This document shows, piece by piece, positions 1 to 32,839 of a stretch of DNA of 32,839 nucleotides (its first letter is position 1; each line of letters starts with the position of its first letter). Origin of the DNA: Candidatus Uhrbacteria bacterium (lineage in GTDB: Bacteria; Patescibacteriota; Patescibacteriia; JACQRZ01); assembly GCA_016209345.1 (NCBI GenBank), contig JACQWH010000026.1:1-32839 (forward strand), read 5' to 3'. The position numbers were made by a program, and so were the translations under genes. Under the pieces are notes generated by a model. It saw nothing but the letters and a program-made list of their open reading frames with translations. It ran no database searches and was not told the DNA's origin.

Positions 1-120
1 TCCGGCTCATTTCCAGCCAATTTCGCCCCAAAAATGCGCTGAACTCGTCGGAATACAGCAAGTATTCCTTCTCATTCATCATCATTTTTGGAACAAAATT
101 GTCATGGAACTGACCGGGAA
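1..120. repeat. Truncated copy of a structured repeat (same family as the core of 23670-23847); cut by the window edge
   Basis: Blocks tccggctcattt, tttcgccccaaaaa, gcgctgaactcgt, tttttggaacaaaa and gaccgggaagc are shared, in the same order, with 23706-23826. Stems: 2-15/105-117, 28-35/84-91, 50-56/62-68. Confidence 0.8.
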
Positions 121-268
121 GCTATTTTTCACCACTCTCAAAAGTACTTTATCATAGTAAAGTAATTGTGTCAAGGGGCTGCGCTGGTTTATGATATTCT
201 TGACGTCAAGAAGGGGTTCGTATCATGTCGAAGGAAAAGGTCTTCTCATGGAATGATAAGAAAATCCA

Positions 269-4752: not shown

Positions 4753-7700
4753 ATGAGGCATATATTTCGCAAAGCTCGACGGTGTGTTGAGAGGGTCATG
4801 TACATTACGACGATAGCATCAACAGTCCTCTGGACGCTCGGTCCGGCAGCACTGCCGGCCAATGCGACAATTAGCATACTTACATCAGTCTCAAGCGCAA
4901 CAAGTGCGCAGACCATCGGGCCGTCGAGCGTACCAACGGCAATATTCGGCATTAACGCGGTTGGGGACGGCGGTGAGAATTTTACTTCATTTTCTCTTGC
5001 TATTACTCCGTCAGCCGGTTTTGTGATGAGCGACCTCGCTGCGCTTGGCACCGGTGCCAGCTCGGGTATTGCTCTCTATCGCGACGATGGGGCAACCCAA
5101 GGATCGTTTGATGCCGCTACTGACGCAAATATCGCCCTGGGTCTTCCGCCTATCATAACTGACGGATCAACTCGCATTTCAAAGTTGATGCCCAGCGATT
5201 CGGTCGGCGTGAGCGCGACAAATCAGGTGGTGGGTTCGGCCGGACGAGACATGAATTTTGTGGTTGGTGATCTTATTTTTGGCAACACAACGGCAAATTC
5301 AGCATCCCTCAACACCTATGATTGGCACGTTGTGACGACAGCGGAAAATATTACGACTGATGCTGCGCCAACAACCTTGCGCCTTGACGCAAACGCAGGG
5401 GGCGCGCCGACATTTGCGGCAAGCACCAGGATTTCGCAATTGACACCCGCATCAACCGGCTCGTACGTCATTAACGGAACGAGCAATACTACAACGCCCG
5501 CATTGACAACCGGCGACATTATTTTTTATCAAACCGGAGCAGGCGCAGGAACATGGGGAATGGTGACCGGTAATTTTACCGCAGCAGCGTCTCCGGTGAA
5601 TGGAGCAAATCTTGGAAATGCAACCTATCGCATTAGCAAGTTGTCCGCGCTCACGGGTTCGTTTGTTGTTTCGGGAACGGATACGATTACGGCCCCGGGA
5701 ACAGGATATACCACGCCAGTTGTTGGAGATATCGTTCTGTATCGTTCTGGCGGACAGGCACTGTGGGGCATTGTGACAAACGCAACCTTGACCAGCGGAA
5801 CGTTTGCCGTTAATAACGCGGCTCTTCCGCCGGGGACCTATCAAATTAGCAAAGTGAATGCCTATACTCCCTCAAGTGCCTTGACATCCGCCATTCCCAC
5901 AGATCAAAACGCTTTTAATACCAGTGATCTCGTCTTTGGCATGCCGACGCAAAATCCGATAACAACTTCATATAATTGGCATATCACAACTGGCGATTCA
6001 TCCGGTAATGCAGCTAATTTTCGTCTTGATGATCGCATGAGCGCTCCGGCGTTTGGATTCTCCGCAATGATTGCGACCGGTGGCGCAGAGCCGGTTCCGG
6101 CAAACAATACCGGTACTAACGAGGGGTCAGATTATTATGTTGCGCTTCGCACCTCGGCATCCGCAGTCAATGGCCACGCTTTTACCGCGGGACTTGCACC
6201 GGGGACATTTGTGCTGACGGGCGGCGTTGCGGGATTACCGACAGAGACGCCTTCACAAACCTATACCATTGCGACAACCGCTCAGCAGTCGCAGTCGGCA
6301 GGGGCAAACACCACGGTCATGGACATGACCAACGGGTTTCTCAAGCTCAAACAGAGCAGTAACTTTAAGGCGGTTGCGCGTGTTCAGTTTGGCAGTACTG
6401 AAAATACAAAAACATTGACATCCATCGCGATTTCTTTTGCCACTGCAAACAGCACAACGCCGACATGGACCGCAAGCGGTGCAGTATCATCAGAACTTCT
6501 TGACCTTGCCGCAACCGGCGGCGGTATCTCGCTATGGAAAGACGGGGGAACCGCAGGGTTTGGCTTGAACGGCGCCGGCGATACGCAAGTTACCCTGGCC
6601 GCAAGTCCGGTATATGGCGCAAGCAACGCGTTTACCATTACTCCGGCAACAGCGCCAACTATTGCGTCGGATGATGTGTACTTTATCGTACTGAAATCCG
6701 ATACGTCCGGTGTGGCAAACAATAATGCATTTACCGTGAACATGGCAACAACCGCCATTACGACCAGCGGCACATCGCCGACAATCGGTGCGTTTCAGAC
6801 ACCGCCGATCGTTATGGATACCACGGTGCCGACGATTGCAAGCGTGTCAGATGTTCCAGGCCAGACAACAAAACTCAGTGTTCGATTCAGCGAGCCGGTG
6901 CGGAAGCTTAATGATGCAGGAGCTCTTACCACATCCGATTTGACCTATACCAATGATGCAACAAACGGATCAGGACGAACCGTGAGCTCGATTTCCCATA
7001 GTCCGGGCGCGGATATTGCAGAACTCACCATGAGCGGCGCTCTAGCGGCCGGTGATTTTGACGGCACACCGTCTCGGTTGGCGGCTTCCGGAGCAGATAA
7101 AATAGAAGATATGGCAGGCAATGCCATGGCAACAACGGCAACAAATCTTGGCAGCCCCTTGATCATTACAACCTCGGTTATTCCGGCAACCTATGTGGCA
7201 GCAGTTTATGATGCCACAACACCGCTTGTCACGTTTGCGGCTCAAGGCGGGGCAGGAACCTATACCTTTGCGGGAAACACACAAGCTGATACGGATGCGC
7301 TTGTCGCGCTTTTGGGCGCAAGTCCCCTTGCCGGCGCCACAGGAAAGCTCACCGGTACGGTTCAGGCAAATACCGCAGGAACCAGGAACGTCACGATAAA
7401 AGTGACCGACGGCGCAGCCGCAACCGCAACAAAACAATTTACGATTAACGTCGCGGCAACGCAGGGAGGCGGTGTTCCCGGATTGACAAATGTCACGCCG
7501 CCATCAGGTGCGCAGAGCGCAACAAATCTGTCAATCGCTATTACCGGCACGAATACGAGTTTTACCAGCGCCAGCACCGTCGCATTCCTACTGAACGGAA
7601 CAGCCGACACCAATATTACCGTCGGAACAGTGACGGCAAATAGTGCAACATCAATCACGGTTCCCATCACTAGCATTGCGGCGGGCGCGACCGCAGGCGC

Positions 7701-10700
7701 TCGGGATGTAAGAGTGACGAGCGGCAGTCAGGTTGTCACCATGCCGGGTGGATTTAATGTCACCGGAACGGTCGCGGCTGGGCTCAATCTCGTGTTTCCA
7801 ACCGCATCGGCAACGGGAATCCAGTTGCCTACGCCCGGATTTAATTTTAATCCCTCAACAAACACCACATTTACCCATTACCGTATTGTATTGAGCGCGA
7901 CGCAGGATTTTGCAACCGCGCTGTGGAACTATGTTTTTCCAAAGCCGGATGCGCAAGGTACGAATGGAAGTCATTGTACCGCGACTTCATGCAATGTGAA
8001 TTATTCAGCGGGAAACTTTCTCACAATCACCCCCGCGTCGACGCTGACGTCAAACACAACATATTACTGGAAAGTGGAGACCTATCAGGATCCCACACCA
8101 ACAACACAGTTTGCATCATCGGATGTAATAGATCAAAACAGGAAGGAAAACACGCCGGTTCGCAGTTTCACCACCTCGGCATCAGTGACGGATGTCCAGC
8201 CGCCGCAAATAGAACATCGTCCGGTTGTCCAGGCGCGCGCAAACGCGTTGGTTACCGTGTACGCGCGCGTGCTTGACAATATCGCAAGCGCGAGCACGAC
8301 GCCGGCCCTTTCCACGACATTGTCTGCCTGTGCAGGTTCCGGATGCACGCCCTCAACATCAACACTGCCAAGCGCGGATGCAAATGACGGCGTTGTTGCC
8401 GGAACGCATGCGCAGAACGGATACTATAGCTATGTTCTCCCGTCGGCGTTTATTACCGCAACCGTAGGAACTATTGTACGGTATTATATTACCGCCACTG
8501 ACGGCACCAATACGAACAATTTTTATCAGCCGGGCGGAACAACGCCGTTTCAGTTCGCAACAACGGCGGCTATCGCATCGAGCGGCGTGACCATTACCGG
8601 TACGGTAAAAGACACCAGCGACGCATGTCCTGCCGGTGTGCAGGGATCGCTTGTGTTTGCCGAAGGCAGCGGTTTTAGCGCGACGACAGGAGCGGATTGC
8701 GCCTATACATTGGGTGCGGCAAATAACGGATTGGCCGTAGGATTCCCCTATGACCTTGTTGTGGCAAAAGACGGATACTCAACCCAACGAAGAGATGCCG
8801 TTCCGGCAGGGTCAACAAGCATTGCTGTTCAACTGGGGCAGGGCGCTACCGGCGGATTTGGCGGAGACACGACGCGGCCGCGTGTACTGCGCTCAATGCC
8901 CGGTGACAAGATGCAGAATGTGCCGGGGAATGATTCAAACATGAGGATTTTGGTGGTGTTTGACAAACCAATGAGTCAGACATCGGTACTGACAAGTGGC
9001 AATATGGTGGTCAATTCCGTGAATGTTCAGACAGGGGTCCTTACCAACATTACCGCAAACGGGTCATGGGCGTATTATTCAACCTATACCATGCCGTTTG
9101 GTGGAACAGAATCAAATGTCGCGGTATGGTCGTTTTCCGGCACAAATACGTTTGGCGATAGCAAGACGATCGCGGTAAAGGTGACGCCAAGCGTTCTTGA
9201 CACATCAGGAAACGCCGTGCAGGGAAATTTGACTGACGGGAGTTATTCATTTTCGTTCACGACCGGCTCAAGTGCAACATCCGTTGGTTTCAACACGGCA
9301 ACCGGAACGTTTGCTGACGGTGGAGTGTTCGGTCAAGGCACAAACATTGCACCGCACGTGACAACAACGGCACCGTCCATGGGTTCGCCCAGCGTACCGC
9401 GCAATACGAAGATCATGATTAACTTTGACACCTCCATGGCCGATGATGCTGTGGGTACGTATACGCTCGCAAGCGGCGTGAAGCTGTTTGAGGTGTCCTC
9501 GGCAGGTGTCGAGACAGATGTCACGTCATTGGCAGTAAACGCCGTCACGCTGACATCTGATAAGAAAGCCGCAACCGTCACGCTTAAAACCACCTATCCA
9601 AGCGAATGCACCGGCGTGGCCTGTGGCGTATTTAAGGCAACCACTCGTTATCGCCTGAAGGTGCTCGGGTCGGCAAAAGCCGCAAACGGAATGACCATGC
9701 GCGCCCCGGGACAGGAAACGCAAGTGGCGTTTATGAGCGACTTTACAACATCCGCCTCTTCTGACACTGTTGCGCCGACCATTGTCGGATCTGATCCGAC
9801 GACGAATGCGGCCGATGTTCCTTCGATGCTTGGGTCGGTGAGCGTGTCGTTTGATAAGGACATGGATTCTTCATCAATTACGACCTCAACCATGACCCTG
9901 ACGACCGGCTCAACAGCGGTCACCGGCACGGTTGAGTATCGGCCGATGGAGCGCACCGCGTATTTTATTCCGTCGCGCGTATTGACGCCGACCACGCAAT
10001 ACACGCTCTCTCTTACCGCCGGAGTTCGGGGAATCAACGGTACGGCAATAGCGGCGGCAACGCGCGCGTTTACCACCGGCTCTGCCGACACGTCCGCGCC
10101 CACTGTGACGTCGCTGACAGCGGATGACACAAACATCTCAATATCATTCAGCAAACCGATGAACTCATCACCGGCAACCGATACGACAAACTTTACGTCC
10201 AGCGTACTGCGCGTTGCCAACTATACGGTGAAATACGGAACAGCGGGGTTTAACGCGGCAACCGCGGGTACAACACTTACACTTCCCGCGACTGCGCAGA
10301 TTACCTATGATGGGAAGAACAATGCGGCGATGATTTCCGGATACCGTCCGACGAGCACGACTGCGGCGCAAGTTCAGGGACAACAGCTCTATGTCGCGGT
10401 TGCAAACGCAAAGGACATCGGAGGAAACGCAATCAGCACCTCCGGGACCGCTCCGGATACCGCAAATACCAGCCGTGCAACCGTGCAGAACAGCGCGACC
10501 ACCCAAGGACAACTCGGGCCGATGACCATTACCAATGACATGATGAAAGCGGTTGGTGATTTTAAGCCAACCACATTTTCCTCTGCAACATTCGGATTCG
10601 CGCCGCAAACGGAAGTACGGCCGTTCAATATGATGACCGGCACCACCACAATTTACGGCGTACATTTGTCTCTCTCGCGGCAGATACCGGATGGAGGCGC

Positions 10701-13700
10701 CATCGTGCTTACCTTCCCGCAAGGGTTTAATGTATCCGGCGCAAAACAGGATATCAACTCTCCGAAACGCCGCGACATAAACGGGCCGGGCACCGGCACC
10801 GTCACGTTCAAGTGCCAGACGAACGTCGCGGGAATGTCCGGCGCGAAGTCCTGCGGAGGCGGCGCGGCAAATGCCGATGATACCGGAACCGCGCAAGGAG
10901 GTCTTGCCGATGACGGGGTTGTGGTAAACGCGAATGCGCGAACCATCACCATTTATGTGAGCGGGGCAACCAACAGCGAAGGACATGATGTGCTTGATTT
11001 TGACATCGGGGGCATCGTCAACTCAACCGTTCCAAAGGATTTCAACACGAGCGGATATACCGTGAGCATCGCGACAAAGAACGGTACGACAAATCTTGAA
11101 ACACTGAGCTCAGTGCCATTCTTTATCCAGTCGGCGGGGACCACCACCTATACGCTTACCGGAACGATTACCGCGACAAACAATAATCAGAGCGGAACGA
11201 TTTCGGTATTCCTTGACTCGCCAATGACCGGCCCGCTTGAGGCAACATCTGCGGATTTTGGCGGCGGACAAACGGCAACGTATTCTTTCTCCAATCTCCC
11301 GCCCGGTGATTATGGATTGAGAACAGAACCGTACGTAAAGATTAATGACACGACTGAATTTCTCGGGAAATTTCCGGAGCGCGTGATGATGAGCGCAAAC
11401 ACCGTGCGCAATTTTACGCTCTCAAGCGCGACCGCGGCAGGTACGGGAACCTCGGTAACGGTTTCCGTTGACGGACCGTCAAGTGAGCCCATTGATATTT
11501 TCGCAAATGGTCCGGCCGGATTCCGCGTGATGCAAAAAACGCTTGACACCAATGCCGGTGCTGAAAACTTTACGATTCGCCTGTCAGACGGCGACTGGTT
11601 CCTTGGGGTTGGTCCCCAAATGCCAAAAGGACAGATGTCCGGCCCGCCGCCTTCGCCGAGCTATCTCCCGCCGCGGCCGGTCAATATCCGTATCAGCGGC
11701 GCTACTTGTGTGATTGAGGGAACCACGACGTGTACCAAAGCATTTACTCTCACCGCATCAACGAAGGAAATACGCGGTATCGTGAAAGATCTCGCAAGCA
11801 AAGTTATAGCAAACGCCAATGTGTTTGCGTACTCACCGTCCGGAACATCAATGGGAAACTTTGCGAAAACAGACACCACCGGAACGTTTATTCTCAATGT
11901 CACCCAAGGAGTGTTTAATGTCGGCGCGGTTATTGAAGGCATGCCCCAATCAAAGGAAGTGCCGGTTGAGGTGGTAAATGACGTGACTACGGGCGCGAAT
12001 ACAAACCTCAAGATTGACGGTGCCGCAACAGCAGTCACGGCTACCGCGGCCGCAACATCTTTTGTGTTGAAGTTGGCAAAACCAGATTATACGATTTCCG
12101 GAAAAGTGACTGACGGGACCAATGTTATCAACGGCGCGTCTGTCTATGCATATAAGCAGGGTGCGCCCGGACGATCCGGCGCCGCAACAGACAGTTCCGG
12201 AAATTATTCCCTCTTTGTGTCAGCTGGTACATGGAGTGTCGGCGCCTTCTTGCCCCAATACGGAAATCTGACTGAACAGACCGTCATCGTCACAACGGCA
12301 AACGCGACGGATATCAATTTCTCGCCAGGGACATCCTACGCGGTCTCCGGAACCGTCACTGTTGGCGGCACCGCGCGGGAAGGAGCCCGAGTGCGCATTA
12401 AGAACAGTTCATACTTTAATGAAACATTTACCGATACACTCGGAGCGTACAGCTTTAATGTGCCGCAAGGAAACGGCTATGTCGTTGACGGATTCGTGCC
12501 GGGTTTTGGAGATATCGCGCCATTAGCCGCGTTTAATGTATCGGCGGCTGTACCGAACAAAGATCTTACGGTCGCGACCCTGCGCACTATCACGATGACG
12601 TTTTCCTCATCGGTTGCAAGCGCGTTTGTTGAACTCCGTTCAACAACAGGGGCGAATATCCGGAAGAAAATTGAGAATTCAACCACCGGAACGCTTTCGG
12701 CGCCTGACGGCAGTTATATCGTAAATATTGATATGCAGGGAGCGCCGATTCCGTTTACCGCCGTTGCCGCAACCGATGGAAGCACGACCTATGCGAGCGC
12801 GACAGGTATTATGACGGTTGCCGACGGTAATGAAGGACTTACCGTCACCGTTCCAACATTGCGAACGATTACGGTTACCGTTCGCGACGGAGCAAGCGCA
12901 TTATTGGCAGATGCGTGGGTTGAACTTATGAATCCGACCAGCGGTGAGCACTTCGGGAGCAAAACGGGCACAAACGGTCAGGCGACGTTGCGCGCGGCTG
13001 ATGGTTCATACTTTATCAACGCAATGAAGCCCGGGTATTACCGCGTGCCGACCTCATTGACAGTCAATGCGGCTGTCGGGACGCAGGCGCTTGTTCTTAC
13101 GGCAGCAACGAAAACAATAGCGGGTACTGTGCTTATCGGCACAACAGGCGCGGCAAATGCGTTTGTGAGAGCCGAAAAGCAGGGCGGTGGATTTGCCGGA
13201 GCAATGACTGATGCAAATGGGCAGTATACGCTCTCTGTGGCGGAAGGCATCTGGAGAGTATTTGCGCGATCCGACGGATATGCAGAGGCGGAACTGAGCG
13301 CCACTGTTGATACGACAACCGCATCGGCGATCGGTAAAGATATTACCCTTACCACAACTGTCACGGTGTCAGCACCGAAGTCAAAGCCGATGACGCCGTC
13401 AACGGGCGGCAGCATTGAAGATACATCGGCAGGTATTAAGGTGAACGTGCCGGCAAACGCGCTGGGCAGCTCATCGTCAGCCGGAAATATGCAGGTGAAG
13501 AAGACGACGAATTATACGCAGACAGAGACCGCGCGACCGGTCGCCGCAGTTGAGATTAGCGCGACTGACGCAAATGGCACCCCCATTAAAACATTGACAG
13601 AAAGCGTGACGGTTGAGCTCACCTATACGAAGTCAGAGCTTGCGACAACAGCATCCTCATCGGATTCGTCCATTAACACAATGTCAGAAATTGAAAAACT

Positions 13701-14904
13701 CGATGTTGGTTTCTGGGATGAATCGGTATCAAACTGGACGACATTGTCCACGACAACGACCTATGTTGACTCAACAGGAGCAGTCGTCACGAGTCCGTCC
13801 GAAGATCTTTCCAATGTTGCGAGTGTGAAATTGAGCGCCCTGACCGATCACTTCTCCTTGTTTGCGCCGGTAGTTCCAACCGATCCGTCAGCACCATCAG
13901 CGCCGACTAACTTCGTCACAGGCACATCGACGACCAGCACAATCAACTTGCAGTGGACCGCAGTAAGCGGCGCGACCGGTTATGACATCTATCGCAGCAC
14001 ATCGTCGGACGGCACCTTTAGCCGTATTGGTTCCGAGCCAACCGTGTCGAGCGGATCAACGGTCACCTATCAGGATACGGGACTGAGTGCCGGCACGGCG
14101 TACTTCTATAAGATTTCCGCGTTGAACAATAACGGCGAGTCAGCCGCGTCAAGCGCAGCAACAACGTCAACGGCATCTTCAACGTCGAGCAGCAGTTCAA
14201 GCAGCTCCGGAGGCGGAGGAGGAAGCAGCTATGTGGCGGCGGCATCGGCAGCAACAACAACCGCAGCAGCAAAGACGGAAACAGCGACAGCAGGCGCAAC
14301 AGCCGTGACGAGCGTCGGTGCTGGCAAATTTGAGATTACTGTCCCGGCAACGGCGGCAAAAGCATCCGCAACTCCCGCAACACCGGCAACTCCAGCTGTT
14401 CCGGGCGTCTCAGCGGCACAAGCAGCAGCACCGGCAACGCCCGCCCTTGCGGCAGAAAAAGTACTCACCGCTGTTCCTGATGCGAAAATTATCGCCCTTC
14501 CGTCGTTCTCACGCTATCTTGCGCAAGGAGCTCGCGGAAAAGATGTCGAAGCGCTCCAGCTTATCTTGCAGGCGAACGGGTACTATAAAGGAAAAGTATC
14601 AGGTATCTTGAATGCGGATACAGTCAAGGCGGTCAAGACGCTTCAGACCTCGGCAAAGATTGCCACGGCAAAGACGGCAGGATACGGCGATGTCGGTCCC
14701 AAGACGCGAGCGTTCCTGAACTCACTGGTTAAGGAAGCAAAGGCAGAGGTGAAGGCGGAGCAGCAATCCATAGACGCAAAAGCCCCGGCAAAACAAGAGA
14801 CGAAAAAAGAGACGGCGGCGCATTCCGTAAAAACAGAACAGCCATCATCATCCTCGTCGGGTGGGACGGCGCTTGATCTTCTAAAGAAATTGCAAAAGCA
14901 ATAA
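4753..14904 (+). CDS. Giant exported multidomain surface protein (Ig-like/SbsA-like, carboxypeptidase-regulatory-like repeats, fibronectin type III, C-terminal peptidoglycan-binding domain)
   Basis: 3383-aa ORF with N-terminal signal/TM; SADTSAPTVTSLTADDTNISISFSKPMN-type Big_5 repeats; KEIRGIVKDLASKVIANANVFAYSPSG-type Cna-B/CarboxypepD_reg repeats; PSAPTNFVTGTSTTSTINLQWTAVSGATGYDIYRS (FnIII); YLAQGARGKDVEALQLILQANGYYKGKVSGILNADTVKAVKTLQ (PG_binding_1). Confidence 0.93.
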   Translation: MRHIFRKARRCVERVMYITTIASTVLWTLGPAALPANATISILTSVSSATSAQTIGPSSVPTAIFGINAVGDGGENFTSFSLAITPSAGFVMSDLAALGTGASSGIALYRDDGATQGSFDAATDANIALGLPPIITDGSTRISKLMPSDSVGVSATNQVVGSAGRDMNFVVGDLIFGNTTANSASLNTYDWHVVTTAENITTDAAPTTLRLDANAGGAPTFAASTRISQLTPASTGSYVINGTSNTTTPALTTGDIIFYQTGAGAGTWGMVTGNFTAAASPVNGANLGNATYRISKLSALTGSFVVSGTDTITAPGTGYTTPVVGDIVLYRSGGQALWGIVTNATLTSGTFAVNNAALPPGTYQISKVNAYTPSSALTSAIPTDQNAFNTSDLVFGMPTQNPITTSYNWHITTGDSSGNAANFRLDDRMSAPAFGFSAMIATGGAEPVPANNTGTNEGSDYYVALRTSASAVNGHAFTAGLAPGTFVLTGGVAGLPTETPSQTYTIATTAQQSQSAGANTTVMDMTNGFLKLKQSSNFKAVARVQFGSTENTKTLTSIAISFATANSTTPTWTASGAVSSELLDLAATGGGISLWKDGGTAGFGLNGAGDTQVTLAASPVYGASNAFTITPATAPTIASDDVYFIVLKSDTSGVANNNAFTVNMATTAITTSGTSPTIGAFQTPPIVMDTTVPTIASVSDVPGQTTKLSVRFSEPVRKLNDAGALTTSDLTYTNDATNGSGRTVSSISHSPGADIAELTMSGALAAGDFDGTPSRLAASGADKIEDMAGNAMATTATNLGSPLIITTSVIPATYVAAVYDATTPLVTFAAQGGAGTYTFAGNTQADTDALVALLGASPLAGATGKLTGTVQANTAGTRNVTIKVTDGAAATATKQFTINVAATQGGGVPGLTNVTPPSGAQSATNLSIAITGTNTSFTSASTVAFLLNGTADTNITVGTVTANSATSITVPITSIAAGATAGARDVRVTSGSQVVTMPGGFNVTGTVAAGLNLVFPTASATGIQLPTPGFNFNPSTNTTFTHYRIVLSATQDFATALWNYVFPKPDAQGTNGSHCTATSCNVNYSAGNFLTITPASTLTSNTTYYWKVETYQDPTPTTQFASSDVIDQNRKENTPVRSFTTSASVTDVQPPQIEHRPVVQARANALVTVYARVLDNIASASTTPALSTTLSACAGSGCTPSTSTLPSADANDGVVAGTHAQNGYYSYVLPSAFITATVGTIVRYYITATDGTNTNNFYQPGGTTPFQFATTAAIASSGVTITGTVKDTSDACPAGVQGSLVFAEGSGFSATTGADCAYTLGAANNGLAVGFPYDLVVAKDGYSTQRRDAVPAGSTSIAVQLGQGATGGFGGDTTRPRVLRSMPGDKMQNVPGNDSNMRILVVFDKPMSQTSVLTSGNMVVNSVNVQTGVLTNITANGSWAYYSTYTMPFGGTESNVAVWSFSGTNTFGDSKTIAVKVTPSVLDTSGNAVQGNLTDGSYSFSFTTGSSATSVGFNTATGTFADGGVFGQGTNIAPHVTTTAPSMGSPSVPRNTKIMINFDTSMADDAVGTYTLASGVKLFEVSSAGVETDVTSLAVNAVTLTSDKKAATVTLKTTYPSECTGVACGVFKATTRYRLKVLGSAKAANGMTMRAPGQETQVAFMSDFTTSASSDTVAPTIVGSDPTTNAADVPSMLGSVSVSFDKDMDSSSITTSTMTLTTGSTAVTGTVEYRPMERTAYFIPSRVLTPTTQYTLSLTAGVRGINGTAIAAATRAFTTGSADTSAPTVTSLTADDTNISISFSKPMNSSPATDTTNFTSSVLRVANYTVKYGTAGFNAATAGTTLTLPATAQITYDGKNNAAMISGYRPTSTTAAQVQGQQLYVAVANAKDIGGNAISTSGTAPDTANTSRATVQNSATTQGQLGPMTITNDMMKAVGDFKPTTFSSATFGFAPQTEVRPFNMMTGTTTIYGVHLSLSRQIPDGGAIVLTFPQGFNVSGAKQDINSPKRRDINGPGTGTVTFKCQTNVAGMSGAKSCGGGAANADDTGTAQGGLADDGVVVNANARTITIYVSGATNSEGHDVLDFDIGGIVNSTVPKDFNTSGYTVSIATKNGTTNLETLSSVPFFIQSAGTTTYTLTGTITATNNNQSGTISVFLDSPMTGPLEATSADFGGGQTATYSFSNLPPGDYGLRTEPYVKINDTTEFLGKFPERVMMSANTVRNFTLSSATAAGTGTSVTVSVDGPSSEPIDIFANGPAGFRVMQKTLDTNAGAENFTIRLSDGDWFLGVGPQMPKGQMSGPPPSPSYLPPRPVNIRISGATCVIEGTTTCTKAFTLTASTKEIRGIVKDLASKVIANANVFAYSPSGTSMGNFAKTDTTGTFILNVTQGVFNVGAVIEGMPQSKEVPVEVVNDVTTGANTNLKIDGAATAVTATAAATSFVLKLAKPDYTISGKVTDGTNVINGASVYAYKQGAPGRSGAATDSSGNYSLFVSAGTWSVGAFLPQYGNLTEQTVIVTTANATDINFSPGTSYAVSGTVTVGGTAREGARVRIKNSSYFNETFTDTLGAYSFNVPQGNGYVVDGFVPGFGDIAPLAAFNVSAAVPNKDLTVATLRTITMTFSSSVASAFVELRSTTGANIRKKIENSTTGTLSAPDGSYIVNIDMQGAPIPFTAVAATDGSTTYASATGIMTVADGNEGLTVTVPTLRTITVTVRDGASALLADAWVELMNPTSGEHFGSKTGTNGQATLRAADGSYFINAMKPGYYRVPTSLTVNAAVGTQALVLTAATKTIAGTVLIGTTGAANAFVRAEKQGGGFAGAMTDANGQYTLSVAEGIWRVFARSDGYAEAELSATVDTTTASAIGKDITLTTTVTVSAPKSKPMTPSTGGSIEDTSAGIKVNVPANALGSSSSAGNMQVKKTTNYTQTETARPVAAVEISATDANGTPIKTLTESVTVELTYTKSELATTASSSDSSINTMSEIEKLDVGFWDESVSNWTTLSTTTTYVDSTGAVVTSPSEDLSNVASVKLSALTDHFSLFAPVVPTDPSAPSAPTNFVTGTSTTSTINLQWTAVSGATGYDIYRSTSSDGTFSRIGSEPTVSSGSTVTYQDTGLSAGTAYFYKISALNNNGESAASSAATTSTASSTSSSSSSSSGGGGGSSYVAAASAATTTAAAKTETATAGATAVTSVGAGKFEITVPATAAKASATPATPATPAVPGVSAAQAAAPATPALAAEKVLTAVPDAKIIALPSFSRYLAQGARGKDVEALQLILQANGYYKGKVSGILNADTVKAVKTLQTSAKIATAKTAGYGDVGPKTRAFLNSLVKEAKAEVKAEQQSIDAKAPAKQETKKETAAHSVKTEQPSSSSSGGTALDLLKKLQKQ

Positions 14905-16730: not shown

Positions 16731-16766
16731 AGTGCGTAAAATATGCTATAGCATATTTTACGCACT
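16731..16766. repeat. 36-bp perfect palindrome AGTGCGTAAAATATGCTATAGCATATTTTACGCACT
   Basis: Perfect dyad; same family as 269-310 with one symmetric pair of changes. Confidence 0.95.
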
Positions 16767-16800
16767 GAATGAACCTTTTTATCATTTTATTCAAAGACCT

Positions 16801-23669: not shown

Positions 23670-23847
23670 TTAAGAGACCTCTGCAAAAGTCCATTGTGTA
23701 TTTCTTCCGGCTCATTTTTGTCCAGTTTCGCCCCAAAAAAGCGCTGAACTCGTTGCTCGGCCACGGCCGGGCTCCTCATCCATCATCTTTTTTGGAACAA
23801 AACCGACTCAAAAATGACCGGGAAGCCCTTTTGCAGAGGTCTCTTAA
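23670..23847. mobile_element. MITE-like element with 20-bp perfect TIRs and a nested-hairpin core
   Basis: TTAAGAGACCTCTGCAAAAG (23670-23689) is the exact reverse complement of CTTTTGCAGAGGTCTCTTAA (23828-23847); internal stems 23704-23720/23809-23825, 23733-23740/23788-23795, 23755-23762/23765-23772. Confidence 0.88.
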
Positions 23848-25347: not shown

Positions 25348-25530
25348 ACGAACAAAGCACTAAGCACCAAATCAAAAATTTCAAATCACAAATAAATCAC
25401 AATTCATAAAATCCAAAACAACACTACCCGCCTTTTGAATTTTGGATTTGAAATTTATTTGGAGCTTGGAGTTTAGAATTTGTGATTTGTGTCGTGTGTT
25501 TTTGTTTTGGTGTTTTTGTATCCCCTAGGA
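25348..25530. repeat. Long imperfect low-complexity inverted repeat, copy 2
   Basis: caaatcacaaataaatcacaatt ... atttatttggagcttggagtttagaatttgtgatttg. Confidence 0.7.
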
Positions 25531-32649: not shown

Positions 32650-32839
32650 AGAAATAATAAAATCGCAAATTCGAAATCTCAAAGCTTGAATCTCAAAGCA
32701 CTAAATTCAAAATTCCAAATCACAAATAAATTACAATCTCAAAATTCAAAAAATGACGCTCATCTGTTTTGTTTTAGATTTGTGATTTATTTGGAGCTTT
32801 ATGATTTTGAATTTGTAATTTGAACGATTGGTGTTTGCA
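32650..32839. repeat. Long imperfect low-complexity inverted repeat, copy 3 (runs to the window end)
   Basis: caaatcacaaataaattacaat ... gatttatttggagctttatgattttgaatttgtaatttg. Confidence 0.7.

Follow-up and report, generated by a model that had tools for sequence, protein, structure and literature searches.

A candidate structured RNA carried by IS5-type MITEs in the Patescibacteria

The window analyzed here, a 32,839-nucleotide stretch of Candidatus Uhrbacteria DNA (contig JACQWH010000026.1), carries at 23670-23847 a 178-bp MITE whose body belongs to a family of folded elements spread across the Patescibacteria. Members of this family are mobile, in two related genomes match IS5 elements in their TIRs, and fold in a strand-specific manner into a structure whose base pairs covary and whose internal loops are conserved. 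The explanation that we favor, with moderate confidence, is that the MITE is moved by an IS5-type transposase and that its body represents a phylum-wide family folded on the minus strand, most likely as RNA. The best reading of the family is a mobile structured RNA carried by IS5-type MITEs, i.e., a candidate RNA. The family is apparently undescribed, and the structured element appears to be abundant in CPR genomes.

Anatomy, mobility, and exchange of termini

An earlier note on this DNA, made from its letters alone, had described a 178-bp element with perfect 20-bp inverted ends, and both its coordinates and its ends (23670-23689 and 23828-23847) stand. The ends are best resolved into a TTAA target duplication of 4 bp and the 16-bp TIR GAGACCTCTGCAAAAG, giving the following features.

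23670..23673, no strand: left TSD, TTAA; TTAA flanks GAGACC...GGTCTC on both sides
23674..23689, plus strand: left TIR GAGACCTCTGCAAAAG, type A; perfect inverted repeat
23702..23824, minus strand: core, a folded rod of ~123 nt (RNA or ssDNA); match to model R1, strand preference, and covariation
23828..23843, minus strand: right TIR CTTTTGCAGAGGTCTC; perfect complement of the left TIR
23844..23847, no strand: right TSD, TTAA; same evidence as the left TSD
1..119, minus strand: second core copy, lost beyond the contig start; homology and a match to model R1 (G000:C11:1-119)
121..139, minus strand: right TIR of the second copy, type B, GCTATTTTTCACCACTCTC; TIR common to L016, L017, L019, L021, and L023

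The rod of the core bears an apex hairpin and GA-rich internal loops. The second copy (1-131) to which the element had been compared is real, but it is cut off at position 1, the first base of the window falling inside it, and its TIR differs from that of the 178-bp element (GCTATTTTTCACCACTCTC, type B, versus GAGACCTCTGCAAAAG, type A).

The TIR-bounded elements are 99-198 bp long, and thus below 500 bp, and contain no transposase gene; they combine TIRs with TSDs and are multicopy. Exact 4-bp duplications of varied sequence flank 27 of 56 elements with the type A TIR, against 1.5 expected, and the element's own genome (G000; 84 contigs, 93% complete) contains approximately 22 copies or fragments. 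The element is thus a MITE, as the earlier note had proposed. Copies also occur in four genomes of the same family, and further multicopy genomes include G007, with many copies, and G692, with at least 12. Since many copies lie at contig ends, where assemblies break, the copy number is a minimum; the element accounts for many contig breaks in CPR assemblies. Of 384 genomes of the class, 17 contain the exact TIR 15-mer GAGACCTCTGCAAAA (reversed control pattern, 0), which where read occurs mostly as pairs 99-198 bp apart.

One core occurs under at least seven TIR types within the family of the window element, and many more TIR types are found elsewhere. Because the same core lies under many unrelated TIRs, core and TIR are separable, and core and transposase are only loosely coupled. 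Two genomes hold an IS5 element whose TIRs are matched by those of a resident MITE, the TIR types being other than A. In G002, a transposase gene assigned to IS5 by NCBIfam NF033581 (over the cut-off), with the Pfam domains DUF772 and DDE_Tnp_1, is bounded by TTGAGTCTGGTGAAAAA, the same TIR (type E) that ends the co-resident MITE L034. The second case is G467, where the TIR of a degraded IS5-type element, GAACCTGTTCAAAATCTT, is close to that of the resident MITE L208. No autonomous element with the type A TIR of the window element was found, and no kb-scale autonomous element with GAGACCTCTGCAAAA appeared among the matches listed for the 384 genomes or at the four matches of this 15-mer in viral contigs. 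An IS5-family DDE transposase would act in trans on the TIRs and thereby generate the 4-bp target duplication, an ordinary step that is well supported.

Several smaller or composite forms were also seen. Solo mini-hairpins, e.g., TATAGAGCCCTCTGCAAAAGGGCTCTATA, occur in L076 (~2950-2982, G000:C22), L077 (G000:C30), and L060 (G205:C2); consisting of one TIR and the last 5-6 bases of the other, they are likely footprints of MITE deletion, or else a minimal element. The exact type A TIR GAGACCTCTGCAAAAG also bounds a hairpin element of 91 bp at 2530-2620 of L199, a G+C-rich IMG/VR contig labelled viral, hinting that this TIR may extend beyond the Patescibacteria. Nested hairpin insertions were seen in L159 and L090 (G381), where the body of 130-nt family elements is interrupted by a further palindrome, CCCGCCCGAACGACTGA....

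Strand-specific folding, covariation, and conserved loops

As the earlier note held, nested hairpins form over the whole body (DNA fold z -7.4, with 0 of 200 shuffles as good). Folded as RNA, the window element reaches -71.2 kcal/mol on the plus strand and -91.5 kcal/mol (z -10.4) on the minus strand, and under RNA parameters the minus strand is the more stable in all 47 cores of the family. Among 41 aligned cores with 40 consensus pairs on the minus strand, 134 cells are G-U versus 12 that are A-C. Other families give G-U:A-C counts of 77:8, 36:1, 11:2, and, as a weaker case, 25:15 after orientation, which for f47, f41, and the other families was assigned partly by motif. Median strand asymmetry is 0.20, whereas 23 hairpins taken from the same loci as controls give 0.09 (p = 1e-5), and by hand count a consensus derived from the plus strand, and biased towards it, still holds 16 A-C versus 6 G-U. 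The selected strand is the minus strand, with L068 as a true exception to the rule.

Covariation was measured at two depths. Within the family, double changes occur at 22 of 40 pairs, with a score of 0.298, compared with at most 0.100 in slid controls and 0.148 in shuffles. Class-wide, in a MAFFT alignment unfitted to structure, they occur at 34 of 38 pairs, with a score of 0.596 versus at most 0.166 in slid controls. The phylogenetic null was an approximate, R-scape-like re-implementation in which the substitutions of each tree branch were re-placed at random columns. In the unfitted MAFFT alignment, significance against this null is reached by 5 of the 38 structural pairs and by none of the 7465 other column pairs. 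The counts are 17 of 38 and 0 of 7465, respectively, in a model-fitted alignment, whose 62 sequences were aligned to the model and which leans towards structure. Covariation above the phylogenetic null, the mark of a structured RNA and the result without which the earlier note was prepared to abandon its reading, was thus found in this approximate form of the test. The double changes that had been noticed between the two copies in the window hold as well, apart from one mismatch in the first stem of the second copy.

The covariance-model search that had been suggested showed the range of the family, with the minus-strand model R2 matching 49 of 384 genomes sampled across the Patescibacteria. 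The helices of these elements enclose recurrent minus-strand loops, in which UUCGAGCGAAA lies opposite UUUGCAGCCGAAA and the conserved segment UUUCGAGCGAAA faces UUUGCAGCCGAAA. GAGGA opposite GACGA flanks the apex hairpin, and the central pair of this loop itself covaries (G-C 26, C-G 5). By eye, many members have a similar loop module near the base. Searched for exactly, with 40-66 free bases between its parts, the two-part motif was found in 11 genomes, and no genome contained the reversed control. A box C/D or k-turn reading of GAUGAUGA was dropped, as it has no CUGA partner on the same strand. Rfam gave no match in the window and only two sub-threshold matches to microRNA precursors at five loci, and a search of viral contigs for the family returned nothing.

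Since the pairs change in step and the internal loops stay fixed, selection appears to act on the fold itself. The earlier note was correct in ascribing the changes to selection on a folded RNA or ssDNA, as covariation above both chance and the null indicates, but it missed that the strand is minus, not plus. The blocks that it took for conserved and unpaired are unpaired on the plus strand only; on the minus strand they form G-U helices and purine-rich internal loops. Its suggestion of a structured RNA or ssDNA carried by a MITE is likewise supported, though it overlooked the exchange of TIRs and the phylum-wide range.

The selected molecule and its alternatives

Conserved loops between freely changing helices resemble a structured RNA bound by protein or by another RNA. 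In the proposed mechanism, the minus strand would be transcribed by read-through from neighboring genes, and RNA rather than ssDNA would be the selected molecule. Its rod would consist of short helices, free in sequence as long as pairing is kept, between conserved purine-rich internal loops; these loops may be recognized by a conserved protein or RNA partner, and such recognition would aid the persistence or movement of the element. In the family of the window element, ~19 nt separate the end of the TIR from the start of the core, leaving the RNA strand no room for a promoter inside the element, hence the expectation of read-through. Orientation relative to flanking tandem genes is balanced (34 same, 34 opposite), and with copies lying in either orientation no cis role is apparent. 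Together, the lack of internal promoter room and the balanced orientation would favor a trans role of the folded transcript, with recognition of ssDNA second. A further-reaching version, which we put forward only tentatively, is that the family is a selfish, phylum-wide, transposase-less ncRNA, a mobile RNA gene bearing conserved internal-loop modules, that survives as it borrows successive IS5-type TIRs and acts in trans via a dedicated partner.

The main rival, possible although we think it unlikely, is that ssDNA is selected, i.e., that folding of the minus strand takes place when the DNA is replicated, transposed, or taken up and that a protein recognizes the folded strand, much as the integron integrase recognizes the bottom strand of attC. 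The minus-strand bias persists with DNA parameters (46 of 47 cores), DNA tolerates G-T better than A-C, and tandem G-A pairs are stable in DNA. This rival also accommodates the random orientation to genes, the lack of promoter space for the RNA strand, and the fact that the element is always mobile. However, the bias is smaller with DNA than with RNA parameters (median 5.4 versus 12.1 kcal/mol), and the ~8% of G-U among standard pairs resembles, in our judgement, ordinary RNA. Moreover, the TIRs and the 4-bp length of the TSDs suggest a DDE transposase that acts on double-stranded DNA and has no need of a folded strand.

Less probable still is action in cis within host mRNAs, whereby the element would alter their stability or termination and the host would keep the fold. 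ERIC and Correia elements do act in cis on transcripts, and orientation is crucial for ERIC (PMC2229807; PMC10969869). The present copies are almost all intergenic and close to genes, as such a role would have it, but the 34:34 orientation to tandem genes speaks against it, and host selection at single sites alone would not keep the same loops in unrelated insertions across the phylum.

We give very little weight to the possibility that the fold is an unselected mutational by-product of template switching in an imperfect palindrome (quasi-palindrome correction). In a long palindrome, both arms can undergo correction at once, and whole apex stems are swapped blockwise, with GGCC and GGAATAC types under both TIR A and TIR B. 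In L150 (1573-1696, G007:C13), the apex loop is now a perfect palindrome, ACTCGTCGAAATAC...GTATTCCGACGAGT; it is a candidate template-switch event of this kind, which suggests that templated repair also occurs. Such correction is blind to strand, yet G-U and A-C cells stand at 134:12; it would remove asymmetric internal loops, yet these are kept phylum-wide; and wobble intermediates of single steps are frequent on the minus strand. The G-U/A-C asymmetry and the conserved loops rule out pure quasi-palindrome correction as the sole cause.

Finally, a short conserved peptide, suggested by ~40-codon open frames seen by eye on one strand of several copies, can be rejected as having almost no probability, since single-base differences in the length of the apex and the loops shift the frame even among close copies, just as the earlier note had argued from the apex, and changes track base pairing rather than codons.

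Relation to known elements and other repeats of the window

MITEs with hairpin transcripts are a known kind, represented by ERIC, Correia/NEMIS, and YPAL (PMC2229807; PMC2267715; PMC10969869). ERIC (IRU/RU-1; 127 bp; enterobacteria and Vibrio) is likewise a small intergenic mobile repeat with a long imperfect stem-loop, foldable transcripts, and several size classes. As described in the literature, it differs in its 7-bp TIR and TA termini, in contrast to the 16-bp IS5-type TIRs and 4-bp duplications found here, and its predicted fold has been reported on both strands (PMC2267715), whereas one strand is favored here and internal loops are conserved across the phylum. Correia/NEMIS elements of Neisseria are MITEs with ~24-bp TIRs whose hairpin transcript is an RNase III substrate; compared by description, they are set apart from the present family by the covariation and loop motifs of its body and by its exchangeable TIRs. 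The YPAL/RU-2 repeat of Yersinia is mobile, palindromic, ~168 bp long, and folds over its full length, but by its description it has no such TIRs and makes duplications of 3-26 bp.

IS5-family MITEs share with the present family the match of TIRs to IS5-family IS elements, seen here in two genomes for TIR types other than A, and the lack of an internal transposase gene. However, the body described here is an independent conserved fold that occurs across many TIR types and not an internal deletion of the IS found. The attC site is also an imperfect palindrome with one better-folding strand, presumably the active one. In contrast to attC, the present elements have TIRs and 4-bp duplications, and the loci read showed no integrase context, R/L boxes, or cassette array. 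The present family differs from known MITEs in folding on one strand, conserving its loops, exchanging its TIRs, and ranging across a phylum. Within the limited literature searched, no paper dealt with MITEs of Patescibacteria or CPR, which is weak evidence of novelty. Hairpin transcripts of bacterial MITEs are usually viewed as a passive product of inverted repeats. The fold here is strand-specific, covaries above the null, keeps its loops, and outlives the TIRs that move it; the testable claim is that a transposable element is selected as RNA (or as a folded single strand), not as DNA alone.

An origin as RAYT/REPIN elements was rejected. Y1 transposase genes are present in 8 of 10 genomes, but the palindromes in those of their flanks that were read are different ones, not REP ends shared with the present elements, which moreover have 4-bp duplications; the RAYT gene that adjoins a truncated element with TIR A (L046) looks like a chance neighbor. 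Separately, the window contains at 361-412 a perfect 25-bp palindrome, AAATTGGTGTCAAGTCCGAATTTTG, whose arm GACTTGACACCAATTT is found again in the same genome, immediately downstream of a RAYT gene (L101). Given this position of GACTTGACACCAATTT beside a RAYT (Y1 transposase) gene, the palindrome is probably a REP of that RAYT.

Other repeats in the window include two copies of the perfect hairpin AGTGCGTAAAACATGCTATAGCATGTTTTACGCACT (269-310 and 16731-16769), set in longer inverted repeats (84% over 70 nt), and a pair of A/T-rich repeats, CAAATCACAAATAAATCACAA..., at 25355-25481 and 32689-32816, which have internal inverted symmetry and flank several genes. A single open frame of 3383 codons at 4753-14904, with many repeat-like extracellular segments, probably encodes a giant surface protein.
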